From assembly GCA_024811115.1 (NCBI GenBank), contig JAKOGH010000776.1:186001-250000 (forward strand): 64,000 bases of DNA. Direction: 5' to 3'. The stretch's first letter is position 1. Each line of letters opens with the position of its first letter. The notes beneath the pieces are model-generated. The model worked only from the letters and a program-made list of their open reading frames with translations, did no database searches and had not been told where the DNA came from. This document shows, in pieces, positions 31,110-53,389 of this stretch. The stretch comes from Terana coerulea (taxonomy: Eukaryota; Basidiomycota; Agaricomycetes; Polyporales; Phanerochaetaceae). A program made the position numbers and the translations under genes.

Positions 31110-31988
31110 CGTGGAGTTGTCTTTCGTTGTGCTGAAAGGAATACCTGATCCGTTGCGGCAGGGGGCATCGTGGTCTCCGGGGCGCTAGTCGTCGGCAAGA
31201 GCACCTTTCTTTCTTGCACCGTGCCTTCATGTTTCAAGTCGACAACGTTTTCAGCTTTCCCCACACCAGCCGCTGAGACTGTTCACCCAGTGTCCCTCAA
31301 TCAGAGATGCTCACCGCAACTCTTGAGCTTTAGTACGGATTCACACTTGGTTATTCAATCTGGTCAGTGATGTGTCCTGGATATGCATCAATGCGACTCG
31401 ACTGATACTTCTTCATTGCACGTAAGGTCGGCTCGGACTCGTAGTCGGAATAAAGGTGCAGGCATCCTCATGGCGAACATGTGAGTATTCGCCAAAGACT
31501 TTCGACATGGATGCTGTACAGGTGAGTCACGGCTGGTATCTGTGCGACACGCTCACACCAACATCGTTCTGTAGTACGATGCCGTGATGACATATGTCTA
31601 ACGTCAAGCCGTTGCCTGTCACTGCTTTTCTGTTGGCCCAGTAGGAGTAAATCGAGCCGAGCGAGGTGCACACACCCCGAAGTTCGAGGGGTCGATGGTG
31701 TTCTGTGCGTATATAAAGGCTTGCGATCCGCAAGCTGATACCCCAGCTCCTCAGTCTTTACTTTCGAGCCACTTCATTTTCTTTAGTCGGCACTGGCTGG
31801 TGAGTACTTGTCCTGTTATTCTTCACTGTTCGCGACGTTGATGAGCCTTGCCCGCATCAGCTTGACCATTGTTTATCTTTTCGCTTTTATTTTATTTTAC
31901 GACTTTTCAGTTCATTTCAAGCCACTCCTCTTGATTCACGACCATCCTCATTTTCGCGTTCAAACCCCGCTTAATTTCACATCTCAAG
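31110..31988 (+). promoter_or_regulatory. Promoter and 5' leader of repeat-peptide gene A, with TATA box and 5'-UTR intron
   Basis: TATAAA at 31712-31717, a CTCCTCAGTCTTT transcription-start-like motif near 31747, and a 5'-UTR intron at about 31800-31910 opening in GGCACTGGCTGGTGAGT and closing in TTTTCAG. The whole block from about 31110 is repeated upstream of gene B (from about 32995), which shows that gene and promoter were duplicated together. Confidence 0.6.
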
Positions 31989-32219
31989 ATGCACTCATCT
32001 GCCGTCCTCGCTCTCGCTGTCCTTGCCGCCGCCGGTCCCGCTCTTTCTGCATCCGCTGTTGGTCCTGACGCTGGGTGGGAGGGAGACAGCGAGGCTCTGA
32101 GCCTGAGCTCGATCTTGAAGGTTGGCGATGGCCTCGTTCACGGCGCAGAGGCACTCTTCGGCGGCAACAACCAGCAGCAGCAGCGCCGCGATCTGTCAGA
32201 GGTCTTGGCCCGGGAGTGA
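31989..32219 (+). CDS. Repeat-peptide precursor A (single-repeat secreted protein)
   Basis: A 76-residue protein. The signal peptide (MHSSAVLALAVLAAAGPALS) is nearly identical to that of gene B. One repeat follows: acidic DSEALSLSS, core SILKVGDGLVHGAEALFG, a GGNNQQQQRR linker and LSEVLARE at the end. It looks like a gene B-type precursor reduced to one unit, since the signal exon runs straight into the last-repeat sequence without introns. In gene B the equivalent CGGGA is followed by an intron and a tail exon ending NELD. Here the tail exon has been interrupted by a small transposon, so translation ends at the TGA at 32219; if the intron were spliced, the transposon junction would give TAA immediately. 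No known family is recognised. Confidence 0.7.
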   Translation: MHSSAVLALAVLAAAGPALSASAVGPDAGWEGDSEALSLSSILKVGDGLVHGAEALFGGNNQQQQRRDLSEVLARE

Positions 32220-32270
32220 ATTTCGTCACAAGTCCGTATTTGCGCTCTCGCTGACATGGTCATTCAGGTA

Positions 32271-32509
32271 AGATAGGGCTCTTGCACAACCCGCTATTAT
32301 CACGTGACATTCGGGAGGCTTGCGAACGGCATTTGCAAGCCCTTCTGCACACAAAATACCAAACAACTTTACTACATAGGTCAGTTCTAGCCTGTAGACC
32401 ATAGCTGAGACCGCCGTTTGTCCAATAGTCTGCACTCAAGGCGCAAACACGACGATGAAGTGGGCGCTAAGGTCATGTGATAGTAGCGGTTTGTGCAAGA
32501 GCCCTATCT
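32271..32509. mobile_element. 239-bp MITE with 38-bp inverted repeats and TA duplication
   Basis: The ends are imperfect inverted repeats starting AGATAGGGCTCTTGCACAA with about 3 mismatches over 38 bp. The element is flanked by TA on both sides (32269-32270 and 32510-32511), the signature of Tc1/mariner-type insertion. It has no coding capacity. Comparison with the intact tail exon of gene B (GTACCCCGCGTCG) shows the empty site GTACC, restored when the element and one TA are removed. Confidence 0.85.
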
Positions 32510-32511
32510 TA

Positions 32512-32695
32512 CCTCGCGCCGGAGTCCTACCACATTGAAGTTGCCAGGGCAAGTTCCACGGAGGCCGCCAGAATCAAGGCCCAGGAGAAGGAGCGCCAGG
32601 CAGAACGCGACCGTAAGCGCAAGGAGCAAGAGGCGAGGGCGAAGGCGCAGGCGGCGGCACAAAAGAGGCCCCGTTCGCTGGGTCAGTTGTGAGCA
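32512..32695 (+). pseudogene. Fragment encoding a charged coiled-coil-like segment
   Basis: After the MITE an open stretch reads ESYHIEVARASSTEAARIKA and then a Lys/Arg/Glu/Gln/Ala-rich helix (EKERQAERDRKRKEQEARAK) before a stop at 32692. It has no start codon, no matching partner and no homologue that I recognise. It is more likely a gene fragment, or sequence reshaped by rearrangement, than a complete gene. Confidence 0.3.
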
Positions 32696-32994
32696 GACGA
32701 GGTTGAATGATGTTGTTCTGGATCCGGCGCCTTCGAGCGAGATCCAACGCTTCGAACCGACTCTGACCGCGTTTGCGAGCCGGACTTTCCTCCGTGCTTG
32801 TCTTTCCTGTGTCCTCGGCCACAGATGTTGCCTTGGGCATCCTGCTATCATACACCTGTCCTTTCCTGTCCTGCTATAGCAATTCAGCCTGAGCGCATTT
32901 CGCAATTCTCTCGCAATGCCTGAGCTTATATACCACTGCGAGGACCTGTCACGGACCAGCTTGGATTTCATTACCAGCTTCTGTTAGTAAATAT

Positions 32995-34266
32995 GGGAGC
33001 TGGCTTTCGTTATGCAGAAAGGAATGACTGGATACCTTGCGGCAGTGCACAGGGGCATCGCTTTCGTCTTCTCCGGAGCGCTCGTTGTCGGGAGGTCGGT
33101 GAGAGTCGCCCGCAGCGCTTGCGCAGCGCCTTTCTTTCTTCCCCCCCTGCCTTCATGTTTCAAGTCGACCATGTTTTGAACTTTCTCCACACCAGACTCT
33201 CCCCTGCTTCTATACCAACCACTGATATATCGTTCACCTAGTGTCCCTCGCTTAGAAATGCTCGCCGCAATTTCTGAGTTCGAGTGCGAATTCACACTTG
33301 GTTATTTACAGTAATCTGGGTCAGTGACTTGCTATGAGCATGGATCAACTGAGACCTACTTGAGACGGGCTTGATTGCACTTAAGGCCGACTCGACGGAC
33401 TCCGTGGCCGGAATAAAGGTCCTATTTTCCGCGGGTGAACATGCGAATATCCGTCAAAACCTATCGACGTGGATGATCAGTTCATTTGAGGCTGTACAGG
33501 TGAGGAATTCAGGTCTATCGCACACTCATGTCAATATCCTTCTGCAGTACGCTACCGTGACAACATACGTCTACCGTCAAGTCGTTGCCTGTTGATCACA
33601 CATTGCGATCTCTACACTGCATGGCCAAGTTGCGTGGGCCACACATCCTGTCGTGGTGATGCCGTACGTTGATCACCTCTTGCCAACAAACTTGATGCCG
33701 CTTTGCCTGTGTTCCGTAACGGCCGGCATTATCACCAGCGCGACACGGCGTGTGTTGCAGAAGATGATGCTGTGCCCGTGTGCGTACCGACGCGCATTGT
33801 GGTAGGCTGGTCTGAAACAGTCTGTCTCTCAATCGCTTCCCCATCATTGATACGTGCCTCTCGAGCGCCGCACAGGACAGCATCTGCGCCGTTACGTTCT
33901 ATCTTGTCATTGCTTTTCTGTTGGCCGAGCAGGCGCGAACCGAGCCGAGCGATGTGCATGCATCCCGGAGCCCGAGGGGTCGGCGGTGTTGTGTCCGTAT
34001 AAAAGCACGCGATCTGCAAGATGGTACCTCAGCTCCTCAGTCTTCACTTTCGAGCCACTTCGTTTTCTTTAGTCGGCACTGGTTGGTGAGTGCCTGTCCT
34101 TTTACTCTGCACCGTTCGCGATGTTGACGAGTCTTGCTTGCCACAGCTTGACTATTGTTTATCTATTCGCTTTTTTACGACTTTTCAGTTCACTTCAAGC
34201 TACTCCTTTTAATTCACGACCATCCCCATTCTCACGTTTAAACTCCATTTCATTTTACATATCAAG
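32995..34266 (+). promoter_or_regulatory. Duplicated promoter and leader of repeat-peptide gene B
   Basis: Colinear with 31110-31988, including TATAAA at 33998-34003, the CTCCTCAGTCTT motif and the 5'-UTR intron (about 34086-34188, opening GGCACTGGTTGGTGAGT). Gene B carries about 310 nt (roughly 33594-33903) that the gene A promoter lacks, inserted between GTTGCCTG and TCATTGCTTTTCTG. Confidence 0.6.
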
Positions 34267-36236
34267 ATGCACTCCTCCGCCGTCCTCGCTCTCGCCATCC
34301 TCGCCGCCGCCGGCCCCGCTCTTTCCGCGCCTGCTGTCGGCCCCAACGCCAGGCGGGCTGCTTTCGACGCCTTCGCTCCCGCTGCTCAGCCCGCTCCTGC
34401 CGCGGCTGGCGGAGACGCGTACCCCTCCGCTCCCGCCGTGCCGTCTGCACCAGCTGCGCCATCCGCGCCATCTGCATCGGCTGCACCAGTTGCTCCCGCC
34501 TCCCCTGCCCCCCCTGCTGCCCCCGCATCGGTTCAGGCTCCGGTCATTCCCAGCACCACTGGTGATGTCGACTTGGGTTCGCTCTTCAAGGAAGTTGGAG
34601 GTGACCTGCTGAACGACCTCAAGGGAATCTTCAAGTGCGTATTCTATTCGGTTGGAAGTAATCTGATGCTAACCGATGCTTGCAGCGTCGATGATGGTGA
34701 CTCGCAGCACAAGCGCGAGCTTCTCGAGGTGTTTGCTCGTGAAGTTCAGGCCGACCCCGCCAACAGTGAGGCCCTTGGCCTGGGCTCCATCTTCAAGATT
34801 GGCGGTGCGATCCTGAACGGTGTCGAGGGTCTGTTTGGGTGCGTTTGGAGTTTTGCGCCGATTGTATGCGCTTGTCTGATTAGTTCCCACCAGCAACAAG
34901 CAACAGAGGGACTTCCTCGAGACCCTTGCCCGTCGTGCTGATGAAGGGGACAGCGAGGCTCTGAGCCTGAGCTCGATCTTTAAGATCGGCAGCGGCATCG
35001 TCCACGGTGCTGAGGCTCTGTTTGGGTAAGCATTCATGCGCGATATCGAATTATTCTTTGTCTAACTCTGCTATCAGTGGCAACAACAACAATCAGCAGG
35101 GAAAGCGTGAGATGCTCGAGATGATCGCTCGCGCCGCTCCGGAGGACGACAGCGAGGCCTTGAGCCTCAGCTCGATCTTCAAGATTGGCAGCGGCATCGT
35201 CCACGGTGCTGAAGCCCTGTTCGGGTAGGTTATCAGCGCAGGATTAATGCGATTGAATGCTGACATTTAGTTCAGTGGCAACAACAACAACCAGCAGAAG
35301 CAGAGGCGTGAGCTGTTCGAGATGATGGCTCGCGCTGACGCTGCTGCGGATGCCGACAGCCAGGCTTTCGGTCTGAGCACCATCTTCAAGATCGGCAGCG
35401 GTCTCCTGTCGCTCTTCCAGTGAGTCTGCAATGCAACCTTAGCATGTTGTCAGTCGCTAACGTGTACATCAGCGGCAACAGCAACCAGCGACGTGATGTC
35501 GAAGAACTCCTGGCGCGCGTCGATGCTCAGGCTCCCGACAGTGAGGCCATCAACTTCGGCTCTCTCTTGAAGATTGGTGGCTCGATCATCAACGGCATCT
35601 CCGGGCTCTTCAACAACAACAACCAGCAACAGCGCCGCGACTTCGAGGAGCTGCTTGCCCGTGCCGAGGCGGAAGATTCTGAGGCGCTCGGCCTCAGCAC
35701 AATCTTCAAGATTGGCAGCGGCCTGTTCCATGGTGCTGAGGCGCTTTTCGGCGGCAACAACCAGAAGCAGAGCCGCGAGCTCATGGAGATCCTCGCTCGC
35801 GCGGACGCAGAGGACTCTGAGGCGCTCGGTCTCGGCACGATCTTCAAGATTGGTGACGGCTTGTTCCACGGCGCCGAGGCCCTCTTCGGCGGCAACAACA
35901 ACAAGCAGAGCCGTGAGCTCATGGAGATCCTCGCCCGCGCAGACGCAGAGGACTCCGAGGCCCTCAACATTGGTTCCATCATCAAGGTCGGCGGCTCGAT
36001 CATCAACGGCATTGCTGGGCTGTTCAACAACAACAACAACCAGCAGCAGCGCCGCGAGCTGTTGGAGATCTTGGCCCGGGAGTGAGTGCGCTCACACGTG
36101 CATATATGCGCTCTCGCTGATATGGTTATCCAGGTACCCCGCGTCGAAGCCTTTGCAAGCAGGCCGCCCGCACGGTTTCCCCATGAACCACCACGAGTTC
36201 GTCAAGATCGCCAGGAGCCTGAACGAGCTCGACTAA
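34267..36236 (+). CDS. Repeat-peptide precursor B (nine-repeat secreted protein)
   Basis: Seven exons (34267-34634, 34686-34838, 34894-35025, 35078-35224, 35276-35419, 35473-36081, 36134-36236) give 551 residues in one frame. The signal peptide is MHSSAVLALAILAAAGPALS. It is followed by an Ala/Pro/Ser-rich pro-region of about 80 residues and nine related units. A typical unit is (K/R)R-x-LLEILAR, an acidic DSEAL box, an amphipathic core such as SIFKIGSGLFHGAEALFG, and an Asn/Gln-rich linker. Dibasic sites precede six of the units; the others have a single Arg. Exons 2-5 carry one unit each and are multiples of three in phase 2-2, whereas exon 6 carries four fused units. Three cores are of an alternative type (GGSIINGISGLFN). 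The layout is that of fungal precursors cleaved by Kex2; cleavage and the activity of the products are not shown. No known domain. Confidence 0.8.
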
Positions 36237-37066
36237 GCGGTGGTCGAGTGCATCTTTATTTTACGACTTTTAACGAGGATTTGGGGATATGAATGATGAC
36301 GCTCTTATTGTAGTAGCTTTAATAGTCGTAACTTGCGAATGGAATGGCTCTGACTGAGGGCTCACTTTCCTATACTTCTTGCGTGTGCGTTGCTTAAATT
36401 TTCGTTGACTTTCGGCTCAGAACAGTGATTTGGCTGTTGAAGTTCTGCTGTGAGTGATCGACATATGGCTGCGGATGTGTTGGCCTGCTCTATCCGGCAA
36501 GTTACTTAGTCTGTCTGTAAACGAATGTATGGACGCGTATGTACTCGGCGGCGTTTGGACTAAGTCTCGCAATGGTTTTCGATTTGATTCCGAGGCTACA
36601 GTCGTCTAGGGTCTTCTACAGTCAGCGTTTCACTGGCGCTTGAGCTTGTGAGTGAACGGCCGGCATCACGGCGCCGGCAACGGTGGTTGGTTCCAAACCA
36701 TCGTCGTCGTCCGACTTGTTGGTCTTGCGACTCGCGAGCAACCTTCGACCTCAACAAAAAACTCCTTAGGGCTCCTACACGCAACTTCGTAACGTCCTCC
36801 CTCCTCGAGAGAGCAATGTCTTGAGCATGGAAGAGTGCGCTGCGCTGTCTCAAACACGCCGGCGATAATCGCATTGAACCAGGTTCAAGCCAGCACTGCC
36901 TTCTTCAATCAGACACGCCAGATGACGCGGTTGACAACCCTGTGAAGCGTCTCGACTCTCAGACACGCCGAAGTCTGTACGGAGCTCCAGTCTCCTTCCC
37001 AGCGCTCCCTGCGAGTTGCTCTCAACCGTACGGACTCCGGCCCGCTTGGGCCGAACTCTCGGACGC
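36237..37066. other. Intergenic between gene B and MITE 2
   Basis: 3' flank of gene B followed by GC-rich sequence with CTCTC/GAGAG motifs. No gene is supported on either strand. Confidence 0.45.
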
Positions 37067-37568
37067 AACTCTCAGGGAGGCTGGCTCCAAACTTTAGCGC
37101 CAGATCAATCCGGCCACTCTCGGTCCCCGGGAGAGCCCAAATGGGGCAGGCGTCTCGGCGCAGAGGCTTGGCAGTTTGCTGCATTGTGCAAAGTTAGTGT
37201 ACTCTGCAGTATCATTTGGCAGCAAAACTACTTCCAATACTTATAGGACTTACTGGACAGAAAGTTAGCACATGTTTTGTGGCTAGAACTTATATGTAAC
37301 TCACTGAAAGCTTTGCTTTCCACCATCACTAACACATTTTGCAGCCCGAGAGCAGTTGTACCAGACCAATATGATTATTTTCTCACAAATAATGTCCATA
37401 AGATGAGTAGAGACTTTATTCACAGCTATTTCTACCATTTGAAGCAGATTGTGAAGAGCAATAGAGCAGAAAAGTCATAGGTGTCTACCTTACCACGGCC
37501 GAACCGGAGCTTCACCCGGGATGACATAATCAGGCGCTAAAGTTTGGAGCCAGCCGTCCCTGAGAGTT
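37067..37568. mobile_element. About 500-bp element with 35-36-bp terminal inverted repeats
   Basis: The left end AACTCTCAGGGAGGCTGGCT.. (37067-37101) is the inverse of the right end (37533-37568) over 35 bp, with one gap/mismatch; both inner edges read TTTAGCGCC. The interior from about 37190 to 37490 is clearly AT-richer than the surrounding DNA. It holds a 67-codon frame (37277-37480) without recognisable similarity. No target-site duplication is obvious. Probably a non-autonomous DNA transposon. Confidence 0.7.
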
Positions 37569-38467
37569 CTGGGAGACGTTCACGTCGGGCGTTTACGCCC
37601 TCCCAGCGGAAACTCGAAGGGGCGAGCTGAGGAAGGAGCCTGACGGAGCTCCGAGCATCGTCGCCGTTGAATGCAGGCGCGGCGGCATGAACAGTGCGCG
37701 CGCAGATTTGGCATAGGTTACGAGATCTTCTGATTTCGGGGTTGTCTCACAAGACGGCCTCGGACATAACTCCATGTAACCTGATGGACATCAGGGCGAG
37801 CCCGTTCCCAACATCTGGGCAATGCGGGCGTGCTCAAAGCGGTGCGCAGCACCGATCTGCAGTGCACCCTGGAGTGTTCCTGGTATGTACGCGCTGCGTG
37901 CTAGAGTCGGGGACGTCACTGATTTTGGCTGTGTACTCAGGAATCGAGATGGGATGCGATAGGACGTTGCCTATAGCCGTGGACTCTTCGCCAAGAGATT
38001 GTCTCAGAATGCGCATCGAGCAGCTGGCTAGCGTTGCATTTCTACTCCCGCTCGTACTTCTAGGCGCGTTATAACGTTTCAGGCCCAGGCGACCAACTGC
38101 GTCCCGTCGCACCGGAGTGACCGGACGTCCACTGGCCACGGGCCGCCTGTCTCGCATCTTCGAACGCCGTGTGCTTGGCACCACAGTTTGTCGGAAGGAT
38201 GATCAGAGCAGCGAAACATAACGCCGGGCCCGGTCAGGCAAATTTCCCCGAGAATAAATAGCTACCCCTCCACAGCTCGCATTCCTCAGGCTGGTCTCCT
38301 CCTTTCGCAAGCTCCTTCTTCATCCCGGCACTGGCTGGTGAGTTGCCTGGACCGGGCGTCACCCTCAGCGACAAGGCAGCTAACCATGCATCCAGCCCAT
38401 TTTTGCATCTCTTTTTCAGACTTTTCACGAACCACCAACCCTTACGCCTATTTTTTCCACGTGCAAA
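37569..38467 (+). promoter_or_regulatory. Upstream region, promoter and 5'-UTR intron of repeat-peptide gene C
   Basis: No gene in 37569-38230. Closer to gene C an AGAATAAATA box (38251-38260) stands in the TATA position, followed by CATTCCTCAGGCTGG. A 5'-UTR intron (about 38338-38419) opens with GGCACTGGCTGGTGAGT, the same junction as in genes A and B, although the rest of the promoter has diverged. Confidence 0.5.
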
Positions 38468-39814
38468 ATGCGTTCTTCCACCCTCCTCGCAGTCGGTCTT
38501 GCCACCGTCACTCCTGCGTCCCTCGCCGCTCCGTTGATGCCCATTCGGTCGAGCCTGTGCGAACGTTTCCCCCAGGTGTGCCGCGCGTGAGTTTTTGCTA
38601 TTCCTGAGAAAATGCTCGGTGCTTAGCCAATTCCGACCAGCCCTATGACCTTATATCCCGAAGGTGCCGGCCCTGTTCAACCGCGGGAGGTTGCGGACCT
38701 TCTCGCTCGTGCCGCTGACGACGAGAGTGGTGCCCTCAACTGGAAGACTATCGCCAAGGTTGGCGCCACTGTCATTCCTGCTCTGGGCAGCGTCGTCGGC
38801 AGCCTCTTCCACCAGTGAGTGCATACGCGCTCGTGCTTGTTCGGCGCTGACGATTTTGTAAATACAGCGACAGCAACAGCACGCAGTCCAGGCGTGACTT
38901 TGAGGAGCTTATGCTCCGTGCTGCGGAAGACGACGAGAGCGGCGCTATCAAACTTGGCAAGCTCGTCAAGTGGGGTGCCGCCCTGATTCCCCCGGCCCTG
39001 GCTGGCGTTGACCAGCTGCTCCACGAGCAGTAAGAGTTTTTATTTTATTTACTTGCGACGAAGGGCGTCGAAGTTCATACCGCCTGCATTAGACAAGAAC
39101 CTGAACAGCCTGCCCCCTCCAAGCGAGAGTTTGAGGAGCTTATGCTTCCGTGCTGCGGAAGACGACGAGAGCGGCGCTATCAAACTTGGCAAGCTCGTCA
39201 AGTGGGGTGCCACCCTGATTCCTCCGGCCCTGGCTGGCGTTGACCAGCTGCTCCACGAGAACCAGTAAGCATATCTGCCTGTAGACTGATACGTAACATA
39301 TATTCATATCGGCGTTAGAGAACAGCAGCCTGCCCCCTCGAGGCGCGAGTTTGAGGAGCTCCTCCTTCGCGCAGTTGACGACGAAAGCGGCGCCTTCGAC
39401 GTCAAGGACGCTGTGCACTGGGGTGCAACTATCCTCCCTGGCGTGCTCGAGGGTGTCCACAGCCTGGCCGAGGAGCAGTATGTCCACGCACTCTCGAATG
39501 GCCGAATAGCATCTCACTTGTTTTCTTTTAGCGAGGCCAGCAAGGCTCCTCGTGACTTCGAGGAGCTCTTCCTTCGCGCGGACGATGAGAGCGGCGCTTT
39601 TGGCGTGAAGGACGCTGTGCACTGGGGTGCGACTATCCTCCCTGGCGTGCTCGAGGGCGTCCACACCCTGGCCCAGGAACAGTACGTTGATGCCCTTCAT
39701 GCCATGGAACCGCCGCTCATGTGTTTATTTAGCGAGTACAACAAGGCTTCTCGCGACTTCCAGGATATCATCGCTCGCGAACTCTACGCTCGGGAGTTCT
39801 ATGACCTCGACTAA
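38468..39814 (+). CDS. Repeat-peptide precursor C (five-repeat secreted protein)
   Basis: Seven exons (38468-38586, 38641-38814, 38868-39029, 39093-39264, 39319-39477, 39532-39681, 39733-39814). The signal peptide is RSSTLLAVGLATVTPASLA. Five units follow, one per exon: (R/K)RxFEELxLRA, then DDESGA, then an amphipathic core of about 20 residues (LVKWGATLIPPALAGVDQLL in the second and third; AVHWGATILPGVLEGVHSLA-like in the fourth and fifth). The spacer box is clearly related to that of gene B (RRDFEELLARAEAEDSEAL), but the cores differ. All introns between units are phase 2, and the protein ends YDLD, like the NELD of gene B. Exon 4 contains an extra T at 39146-39147 compared with exon 3 and breaks the frame; it is either a recent lesion or a read error. 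Function unknown. Confidence 0.75.
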
Positions 39815-40398
39815 GCGGACTGGTTTCGGCTCGCATTCCACGGACCCACCAGGATGAGCGTAATGGTTATCAACTGATAGGTTTATATAATGTCTTACAC
39901 GAGATGCTACTGTATCAGTATCCGGGATGAATATAGCTTAGCTCGCCTCCATATATTGTCGTGGGTCGTCGAGAGAAACCTGAGGTTCGCTTCAAGTTTG
40001 CTCTTCGGAGCACAACGTAGCGATTTAGCGCAATGTTCGCCTTCCAACTTGAATGTTGGTTCCCCCTCCGCCGTTTGTATGGAGCCCTTTGGCGTTTTGT
40101 CTGACACTCTAGCTGGGATTAAGAAGGATAATACAACTTGTTGCAACCTATAGTAACCCCGCCCCTACATTTGACAAAGCACCAGTGACCAAATACACCT
40201 TCACCGACAATCCAAGCGGCTACATTAATCAAAACATTCTCAGCTGTTTTTACCTCTGCAAGCTACGTGACATGCTTCTGACCATGGTATTCTTTGTATT
40301 CAGTTAGAGGAGAATACAGACGCAAAGCATTCGATAAAAACCTGTAAACTAGTGAGATGCGAAAGAGAAAATACGAGGCCGCCGCGGAAAAACGTCTA
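39815..40398. other. Intergenic, no gene seen
   Basis: 3' flank of gene C, moderately AT-rich, with no supported reading frame. Confidence 0.5.
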
Positions 40399-40505
40399 GC
40401 CCACCGCGAGGGTCGAACTCGCAGCCTTCAGATCGCAGGATCATTATCAGCTTATCACCCGCACTCATAAGAGTCTGACGCTCTATCCGATTGAGCTAGG
40501 CGGGC
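40399..40505 (-). tRNA. tRNA-Lys (anticodon CTT) with a 34-nt intron
   Basis: On the minus strand GCCCGCC pairs with GGTGGGC. The D arm is GCTC..GAGC, the anticodon stem TCAGA/TCTGA closes CTCTTA..A with anticodon CTT, and the T-arm is GCGAG-TTCGACC-CTCGC. A 34-nt intron follows position 37; the mature length is 73 nt. It lies 153 bp from the left end of the CACTA-like transposon. Confidence 0.92.
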
Positions 40506-49475: not shown

Positions 49476-49572
49476 GGCTACCTGGCGCAATGGTAGCGCG
49501 TTTGGCTTCGATTGCTTAACGAGAGTGCCCGTATGGGACCAAAAGGTTGCAGGTTCGAGTCCTGCGGTGGTC
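49476..49572 (+). tRNA. tRNA-Arg (anticodon TCG) with a 26-nt intron
   Basis: GGCTACC pairs with GGTGGTC (with G-U pairs). The anticodon stem TTTGG/CCAAA closes CTTCGA..A, so the anticodon is TCG, and the T-arm is GCAGG-TTCGAGT-CCTGC. The intron is 49512-49537. The gene is nearly identical to 53293-53389 on the other strand. A short T run after the 3' end is a weak Pol III terminator. Confidence 0.9.
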
Positions 49573-50056
49573 ATTTTATTTTGATGCATTTCTTTTCCTT
49601 TTGTTTTGTTTTTGGTCTCCTTTGTTTTACGTCCGTCAGGGATATCCCTATGGTGGACGATCTACATGTACATGCGTTTACCGTGCTGCTACTTCCGTCT
49701 GAATGCGAGTTGGTCTTGTATGCAATGGCTTCTTTTCCTTGATACAGTGCTGAGTTCAGATGGATATTTGTACACCTTATATGGTGCTTGTAGTCATTTT
49801 TTCGAGAAAGTTCAAGTAGCTTGCCGTGCGGTACTTCTAAGTTCACGCTCAAGCTGCAACTCTTAGTTCACATGTGTAACTGTCACATGCACGTGATGGT
49901 CACGAACGCGCACGGCTTTGGGCGCGTGAGCTCGGTTCTGTTCTTCCTTTGACGGTTCCTTGTCTTTCTTCCGTTTCATTCTCAGAATTTACGTATATTT
50001 CTTGTCTTAATCAGCCTTGTAGCCTCTTCCTGTACGGCTCCGCGCCTTCGCCGCTC
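49573..50056. other. Spacer and 5' leader of the CDC7-like gene
   Basis: T-rich just after the tRNA, then leader sequence. An in-frame ATG at 49949 would add 36 unconserved residues; the ATG at 50057 is preferred. Confidence 0.5.
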
Positions 50057-52919: not shown

Positions 52920-53292
52920 GGTGTTGATTTTATGTAGCATAGCAAGCAATGAGCATGAGATATAGCAATATGCATAATGCACAGCCGTCTGCCGAGTTGG
53001 TAGGTTGTGCAACTTGTGCTGCAAGAGACGCATTCCCTTGCAAATAGGTCTGAATATGAAATTTTGACAGCTTAGAACAGGCTTAGAATTCAAACTTAGA
53101 GGTGTGTTTGAGCAACATTTATTATCCAGCACAACACCGGAAGCTAATATTATGCTATCGGCCCCGCGTGAGACTCTAGTTTCTGGGCCTCGCAGCCCGG
53201 GCTTGCACTAATGTTGACTAGGTGTACCATATAATGCGTACAGATATCCACCTGAACTGAACCAAGAAAAGAGAAACGCACTGAAAAAATAT
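52920..53292. other. Intergenic, no gene seen
   Basis: 3' flank of the kinase gene and of the minus-strand tRNA. The six-T run just beyond the tRNA 3' end (53286-53291 on the complement) is a likely Pol III terminator. Confidence 0.5.
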
Positions 53293-53389
53293 GACCACCG
53301 CAGGACTCGAACCTGCAACCTTTTGGTCCCATACGGGCACTTTCGTTAAGCAATCGAAGCCAAACGCGCTACCATTGCGCCAGGTAGCC
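53293..53389 (-). tRNA. tRNA-Arg (anticodon TCG), second copy, inverted
   Basis: Same tRNA as 49476-49572, with one base difference inside the 26-nt intron (GAAAG instead of GAGAG) and an identical mature part. The two copies lie in opposite orientation on either side of the CDC7-type gene. Confidence 0.9.

Follow-up and report, generated by a model that had tools for sequence, protein, structure and literature searches.

Genes A, B and C occupy positions 31989-32219, 34267-36236 and 38468-39814, all on the + strand, of a 64,000-nucleotide stretch of the Terana coerulea genome (the window; C604:186001-250000 of a 48.4-Mb assembly of 896 contigs). A first-pass annotation, made from the letters alone, described them as a cluster of three related secreted precursors built of tandem repeats; its observation was partly confirmed and its interpretation partly supported. 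On balance, we lean towards reading B and C as precursors with a predicted signal peptide, which are likely cut by Kex2 at basic sites and would thereby free predicted-helical amphipathic peptides that act at surfaces or membranes outside the cell. The best reading is that they are of a known kind, the Kex2-processed repeat proteins (KEPs), in a modular format that was not found in the portions of published work covered.

The repeats of B and C are real and far beyond chance. The unit-head pattern occurred 8 times in B and twice in C, compared with means of 0.003 and 0.002 in 2000 shuffles of each. The repeated head reported earlier, (K/R)R-E-h-x-E-L-L-A-R with an acidic DSEA or DESGA box, was confirmed, as was the relatedness of the three genes, which have similar starts (MHSSAVLALA.. 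/ MRSSTLLAVG..). The copy numbers given for A, B and C (1, 9 and 5) needed correction in part: A indeed has a single core, whereas B has 8 units with an SxA box plus a ninth, terminal spacer that lacks a core, and C has 5 units, 4 of them in frame.

Gene B has seven predicted exons and encodes 551 amino acids, with no Cys and two Tyr. Exon 1 (34267..34634) carries the signal-peptide-like start, a Pro/Ala-rich region and a first helix-like stretch without spacer. Units 1 to 4 follow singly in exon 2 (34686..34838, 153 nt), exon 3 (34894..35025, 132 nt), exon 4 (35078..35224, 147 nt) and exon 5 (35276..35419, 144 nt), and exon 6 (35473..36081), with a 138-nt tandem repeat, holds units 5-8 and the terminal spacer. 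Each unit is composed of a basic site, an acidic helix E-h-x-E-L-L-A-R, a box D-x-S-[G/E]-A, an amphipathic core and an N/Q/G-rich tail. B had been thought to end at ..LEILARE. However, a canonical donor (36082) paired with an acceptor that ends at 36133 yields exon 7 (36134..36236), which was missing from that model; it reads to ..YPASKPLQAGRPHGFPMNHHEFVKIARSLNELD and ends in ..ARSLNELD, the C-terminal tag RSLNELD and its stop codon occupying 36213..36236. The introns of the gene models are GT-AG. The dibasic cleavage-like sites noted earlier stand for B, which has 8 of them compared with 2.19 expected (2 of 2000 shuffles reach 8). The KEP rule of Umemura 2020 asks for at least 3 tandem repeats of at least 8 amino acids, none above 100 amino acids, between KR, KK, RK or RR; in our own version, in which the SxA box is required, B passes with 5 box-bearing fragments between dibasic sites. 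A copy of B lies on the minus strand of C597 (L009, G000:C597:198001-208000), with 85% identity over ~1.2 kb; it halts in unit 2 and continues into an unrelated frame.

In gene C, exon 1 (38468..38586) encodes the signal-peptide-like start and a CERFPQVC stretch, and exons 2 (38641..38814), 3 (38868..39029), 5 (39319..39477) and 6 (39532..39681) encode units 1, 2, 4 and 5. Exon 4 (39093..39264, 172 nt) contains unit 3, with the frame broken relative to its neighbours; when it is left out, the frame is open for 281 amino acids. Exon 7 (39733..39814) holds the terminal spacer and a variant tag, ..AREFYDLD. Since exons 2-5 of B and 2, 3, 5 and 6 of C contain one unit each and have lengths that are multiples of three, units could be gained, lost or skipped without a change of frame. 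Some of the contig pairs C434/C779, C779/C780, C486/C487 and C113/C591 differ, by eye, by frame shifts in repeat regions. Because frame breaks differ between such paired, allelic-looking contigs, some broken frames, including that of C exon 4, may be assembly errors.

Three protein searches, with ~8000 candidates scored in each, returned 24, 21 and 36 matches, which represent at least 65 distinct relatives, a lower bound; together with B and C these form a family set of 67 proteins. Thus, the spacer is not peculiar to the window. The relatives came from Phanerochaete, Trametopsis, Irpex, Hermanssonia, Antrodiella, Steccherinum, Phlebiopsis, Cristinia, Laetiporus, Cerrena, Cytidiella and, weakly, Hohenbuehelia; among six species checked in the NCBI taxonomy, four belong to Polyporales, and Cristinia and Hohenbuehelia to Agaricales. 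In P0024, from Hohenbuehelia grisea (Agaricales), the L-L-A-R spacer is similar, the core (GLGSFLKPALPILKKVAPFAPLL) is different and the protein ends in SLDELD; these features suggest a repeat format that extends beyond Polyporales. The N-terminal part of B was 59% identical to Phanerochaete sordida P0001 over 74 columns, and the start of C matched P0014 of the same species, C-E-R-x-P-x-V-C included. As P0001 (most like B) and P0014 (most like C) are listed with different longest contigs, the B/C cluster may not be general. Related units were also found elsewhere in the T. coerulea genome, on C597, C19, C769, C659 and C822; the matches to C659 and C822 were weak (E 0.02 and 0.03), and inspection of the frames confirmed them. 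Two further weak matches, C579 and C815 (E 0.05 and 0.10), were rejected, as inspection of their sequence revealed no such repeats.

Comparison of units between proteins across the family (11283 unit pairs) gave identities of 0.51 for the leader, 0.70 for the box and 0.21 for the core, the first two being inflated because the pattern itself fixes S and A in the box and R in the leader. The claim that the spacer is conserved while the cores differ therefore held family-wide, and the hydrophobic pattern of the core was kept at 0.72 despite its low identity. For B and C alone, the values were 0.42, 0.43 and 0.25, respectively (21 pairs; 7 of 8 B units and 3 C units were caught). The seven caught B cores matched the best P0001 units at 0.22-0.78 (mean 0.52) and their leaders at 0.68, and between C and its likely counterpart P0014 the cores were at 0.26 and the leaders at 0.78. 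Thus, in both likely counterpart pairs the leader is better preserved than the core, and the difference is greater for C. It had also been proposed that the product diversifies. This may hold between C and P0014, where the cores have changed strongly, whereas within B the ratio of nonsynonymous to synonymous substitution rates (dN/dS) was 0.33 for cores (28 pairs) and 0.26 for leaders (36 pairs), and diversifying selection on cores was not seen there. The cores within B may instead change under purifying constraint, a weak conclusion as the repeats may be homogenised.

When 147 units delimited by basic sites were aligned (with the first Arg fixed by the pattern, and 6 box-less units from P0024 included), they showed a common order of E-h-x-E-L-L-A-R, linker, D-E-S-G-A, core with conserved hydrophobic spacing, L-F-G-G and N/S/Q tail. 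The leader was 8 residues long in 115 of the 147, and units measured from dibasic site to dibasic site were mostly ~45-55 amino acids. With a second pattern, 153 units were collected from 46 proteins; their cores had a median length of 24 residues (5th-95th percentile 18-32), and the mean charge was -1.85 for the leader, -3.03 for link and box, +0.28 for the core and -0.20 for the tail. The hydrophobic moment of the cores was 0.407, compared with 0.231 after shuffling (mean z 2.2; z >1.64 in 74%), and peaked at 100-110 degrees. AlphaFold modeled one unit as helix 2-15, hinge 16-19, helix 20-42 and coil, with a mean predicted local distance difference test (pLDDT) score of 65, and predicted no stable fold for a stretch of four units (pLDDT 40). 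A profile search of solved structures returned three matches, the best with E 0.19, and no peptide of this kind was among them.

Protein ends similar to that of B recur in the family: [DEG]LD closes 40 of its 67 members, 25 of which have the full RSLN[DE]LD. In the DNA of the whole T. coerulea genome, the pattern RSLN[DE]LD-stop had 7 matches compared with 0 for the reversed pattern, and a looser tag, R-S-[LI]-[NDE]-[DE]-L-D-stop, had 22 compared with 5 for the reversed control. All 22 places were, by eye, preceded by frames with spacer-and-core units and basic sites; the C113/C591 pair has one unit only, and its C591 side was judged via alignment to C113. Sixteen of the 22 had more repeated 5-mers than the 99th percentile (3) for 1000 positions drawn at random from the window, and the remaining 6, which score 0, have one to three units by reading. 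Four pairs look allelic (C113/C591, aligned at 93-99%, and C434/C779, C486/C487 and C779/C780, judged by like frames and identical tails), leaving 18 loci, and the 22 tails represent 18 distinct DNA sequences. At 13 of the 18 loci, Ala stands immediately before the tag, a position that the pattern leaves free, giving a spacer-like A-R. In one tag match, Ser replaces the Arg of the tag. The variant FYD(E)LD, with C and C769 as two of its three matches, was not retained, as 3 matches compared with 5 in the control give it no statistical support. Six tagged precursors (L056, L064, L058, L066, L041 and L040) have long His-rich stretches (HGHKHHGHK-like) before their units, and it is possible that these stretches bind metal.

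Cores of at least four kinds (D-x-S-x-A, NW, FW and GSLGQS) were detected in tagged genes, while spacer and tag stay. Genes with NW-type cores occur twice on C526 and three times on C486 (..PKNGINWGNIENGEILKSLYH.., ..QTQLNWGDITNEKVLNGLF..), and an FW-type core occurs on C526 (SFASDFWGGFKKGFVGTLETVGPVVASFL). The GSLGQS type, mixed with D-x-S-G-A units, was found at C604:45274 (L065, G000:C604:44801-50500), on the window's own contig and ~175 kb from gene B. Beside their cores, the C526 genes have R-R-x-D-D-E-L-L-A-R or K-R-E-D-L-E-L-L-A-R spacers (17 matches in L055 and 5 in L062); such spacers are fewer in the C486 genes (R-R-E-E-E-L-F-L-R). In the NW genes of C526, the core starts directly after L-A-R; of the sequence evidence, this argues most strongly that the Arg of L-A-R is a real cutting site. 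Tagged precursors of the NW type include L055 (G000:C526:121001-131000), L059 and L060 (both C486) and L061 (C487), with NGINWGNIENGEILKSLYH and QTQLNWGDITNEKVLNGLF.

These features may be combined as follows. The predicted signal peptide would route the precursors out of the cell, and a Kex2-type protease would cut them at basic sites, which the N/Q/G-rich tails would expose. Until its release, each core would be held soluble and inactive by a pro-part made of the acidic helix and the D-x-S-[G/E]-A hinge. A second cut, on the C-terminal side of the single Arg of L-A-R, would detach the core from the acidic helix, and the tag R-S-L-N-E-L-D would be a common handling signal of the precursor. 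Matches to the P-domain (PF01483) at three places in the T. coerulea genome suggest a kexin, and 4 DPPIV_N matches were found on two contigs. KEP products in P. pastoris appear to be cut after a single Arg (Vogt 2022, PMC9769878). The processed-repeat precursor of the first-pass annotation thus remains the best reading, with B passing the KEP rule and P-domain matches present, whereas C does not pass. With regard to function, we prefer, with moderate confidence, a surface-active role like that of the Ustilago Rep1 repellents over a lytic role, because the units are of similar length, the cores are amphipathic and little charged, and B contains no cysteine.

Several observations weigh against this interpretation. 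Gene C has 2 dibasic sites, no more than expected by chance (1.50), and as 896 of 2000 shuffles reach this number, these sites alone are no evidence. C also fails the KEP repeat rule, with only 1 box-bearing fragment between dibasic sites, one of its cores is only weakly amphipathic (z 1.1), and its cores are poorly conserved in P0014. In the family, 39 of the 67 proteins pass our own three-fragment version of the rule and 28 fail, some of the failures being fragments, and signal-peptide-like starts were judged by eye and by a loose pattern, which assigned one to 53 of the 67, several of these being spurious. The 153 units end in RR (71), KR (41), QR (28), SR (12) or NR (1); the end is therefore a single Arg in 41, and 37 of these 41 have no basic residue at P4. 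Moreover, the NW cores were not amphipathic in the moment test (z 0.6 and 0.1) and the FW core weakly so (1.6); since the NW cores come with the same spacer and tag, amphipathicity is not what the repeat format is for. Confidence in the structure models is low, and both were built on 11-row alignments.

It is possible, and we offer this tentatively, that all of these genes represent a single modular release system, in which a signal peptide, a universal acidic L-L-A-R spacer with two kinds of basic site, and a universal address tag R-S-[LI]-[NDE]-[DE]-L-D, read by a dedicated sorting or maturation factor, would deliver and release any core placed between them, be it of the amphipathic, NW, FW or GSLGQS type. 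If true, such a system would be a eukaryotic counterpart of leader-guided peptide biosynthesis.

Gene A (31989..32219) is a single open frame of 76 amino acids with a signal-peptide-like start, one core that is not preceded by a dibasic site, and a terminal spacer; the C-terminal tag is absent. A first stretch of 431 nt in its 5' part is 83% identical to the DNA of B, and a second, at 84% identity, reaches 3 nt beyond the last acceptor of B, where the similarity ends. A 249-bp element resembling a miniature inverted-repeat transposable element (MITE), with 46-nt terminal inverted repeats that are 91% complementary, lies at 32266..32514 (no strand assigned) and occupies the expected start of the last exon of A; two further near-full copies of it, with 95% identity, are present in the genome. 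Because the similarity to B ends near B's last acceptor, where the inverted-repeat element begins, gene A is best read as a probable collapsed copy of B without the tag exon, and not as the third precursor of the set, as had been proposed.

Upstream of the coding regions, A, B and C have in common a 5'-untranslated region (5'-UTR) junction, GCACTGG[CT]TGGTGAGT. TATA-like boxes lie 80 nt upstream of this shared motif in A (31710..31717), 78 nt in B (at 33998) and 75 nt in C (AATAAATA, at 38253). Introns were predicted in the 5'-UTRs of A (31800..31910), B (34086..34188) and C (38338..38419), with the donor motif matched and the acceptor placed by reading; the donor context of A, GCACTGGCTGGTGAGT, was found again in C and, with one change, in B. 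Elsewhere in the window, tRNA matches from Rfam were located at 40398-40505, 49476-49573 and 53292-53389. No tailoring gene was detected near the locus among the 20 of 72 open segments of at least 150 amino acids that were scanned, shorter exons being outside the scan; TPR_2, methionyl-tRNA synthetase and PP4R3/EVH1 scored above the cut-off and a protein kinase below it.

Other roles for the repeats have to be considered. It is rather improbable, in our view, that the freed cores are lytic or antagonistic peptides similar to candidalysin, directed against competitors, grazers or host cells and inhibited by the acidic spacer. Short hydrophobic amphipathic cores between acidic pro-segments and basic sites would suit this function, and several paralogues with different cores fit an arsenal. 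However, the cores are near neutral (mean charge +0.28) and not cationic, and synthetic KEP peptides of Coprinopsis had no antibacterial activity (PMC9769878), an argument by analogy only.

That the products are the fungus's own signalling peptides, pheromone- or hormone-like, we regard as unlikely. Alpha-type pheromones are classically built as processed tandem repeats (PMC6339444), and two of the seven B cores match a P0001 unit at 0.78 and 0.72, but the other five match P0001 at only 0.22-0.56. Moreover, the units are long (mostly ~45-55 amino acids), many non-identical ones occur per gene, there are ~18 tagged loci, and no STE13-type XA/XP run was seen by eye after the basic sites of B. 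Nor do B and C fit basidiomycete B-locus pheromones, which are short precursors: the C-terminal CaaX described in PMC5473757 is absent, B ending in SLNELD and C in FYDLD.

It is still less probable that these are uncut, secreted structural or calcium-binding proteins in which spacer and box form an EF-hand-like helix-loop. Some relatives carry such annotations, and among 10 relatives scanned P0005 was above four EF-hand cut-offs and P0003 above that of a calpain-type EF-hand model. However, the full residue set of the loop (D/N at 1, D/N/S at 3, G at 6 and E/D at 12) was seen in 5 of 383 boxes and in none of the 12 boxes of B and C, two C boxes having D at position 12; E/D at this position occurred in 26 of the 383, and on this ground the EF-hand reading was rejected. 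In addition, no Pfam match above the cut-off was found in A, B or C, and no stable fold was predicted. Least probable of all is a decaying, largely silent repeat array: A without its last exon beside the MITE-like element, the broken exon 4 of C, the C597 copy of B that ends in unit 2 and a frame-broken C659 would fit, but the 7 predicted exons of B keep an open frame, its units differ under purifying constraint, its TATA-like box and 5'-UTR intron have matching spacing, it has a likely P. sordida counterpart, and frame breaks vary between paired contigs (by eye), some perhaps being assembly errors.

Among known systems, dikaritin precursors (for example ustiloxin), which belong to the ribosomally synthesized and post-translationally modified peptides (RiPPs), likewise have repeated cores between Kex2 sites. 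The first-pass annotation saw no UstYa (DUF3328) gene nearby, and this holds more widely: of 22 UstYa matches in the genome (21 above the cut-off), none is on C604 or on other contigs with these genes, some of which are short. A UstYa-modified RiPP was therefore rejected, B in addition offering no Cys and two Tyr. Ece1 of Candida albicans is likewise secreted as one precursor, and cleavage at its basic sites gives several peptides, among them candidalysin, an amphipathic 31-mer (PMC5784256). By description, however, Ece1 has seven KR sites and one toxin peptide, whereas the units within each gene described here are similar to one another.

Rep1 and Hum3 of Ustilago maydis, likened here by a review's description and not by sequence, are composed of tandem imperfect amphipathic repeats of 31-55 amino acids separated by Kex2 sites (PMC4617103); the Rep1 repeats, of 34-55 amino acids, are amphipathic and cut at Kex2 sites according to the same review. 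B has amphipathic repeats within this length range between its dibasic sites, and C has no enrichment of dibasic sites. The spacer, the D-x-S-x-A hinge and the tag are not described for Rep1 and Hum3 in the portions of PMC4617103 covered.

The KEPs of Agaricomycetes (Le Marquer 2019, Umemura 2020, Vogt 2022), whose functions are largely unknown (PMC9769878), share with our genes a signal-peptide-like start (here judged by eye) and, in B, at least 3 similar fragments between dibasic sites; no UstYa match lies on the same contigs, and linear products would be expected here as well. In contrast to the 6-20-residue peptides in Vogt (PMC9769878), the units here are mostly ~45-55 amino acids and have two site types each (dibasic and L-A-R), and a like spacer and C-terminal tag accompany unrelated cores. 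Neither spacer nor tag is named in the main-text portions of these three papers that were covered. A text search of the literature for the tag letters gave no relevant match, most matches being judged by title and figures and supplements being outside the search; in a basidiomycete study (PMC5473757), the letters occur inside pheromone precursors and not at an end. Among the matches listed for box and spacer letters, none seemed related, again judging by titles. Some of these proteins may well be among those in Umemura's table. In the Le Marquer pipeline, protein C-termini were set aside at first and consulted later only for motifs that had already been detected, and a shared end could therefore have gone unseen. 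A tag common to precursors with unrelated cores would allow KEPs, also those in which dibasic sites are few, to be recognised from their C-termini rather than from their repeats, and would thus provide a simple handle on a poorly understood class of mushroom peptides.

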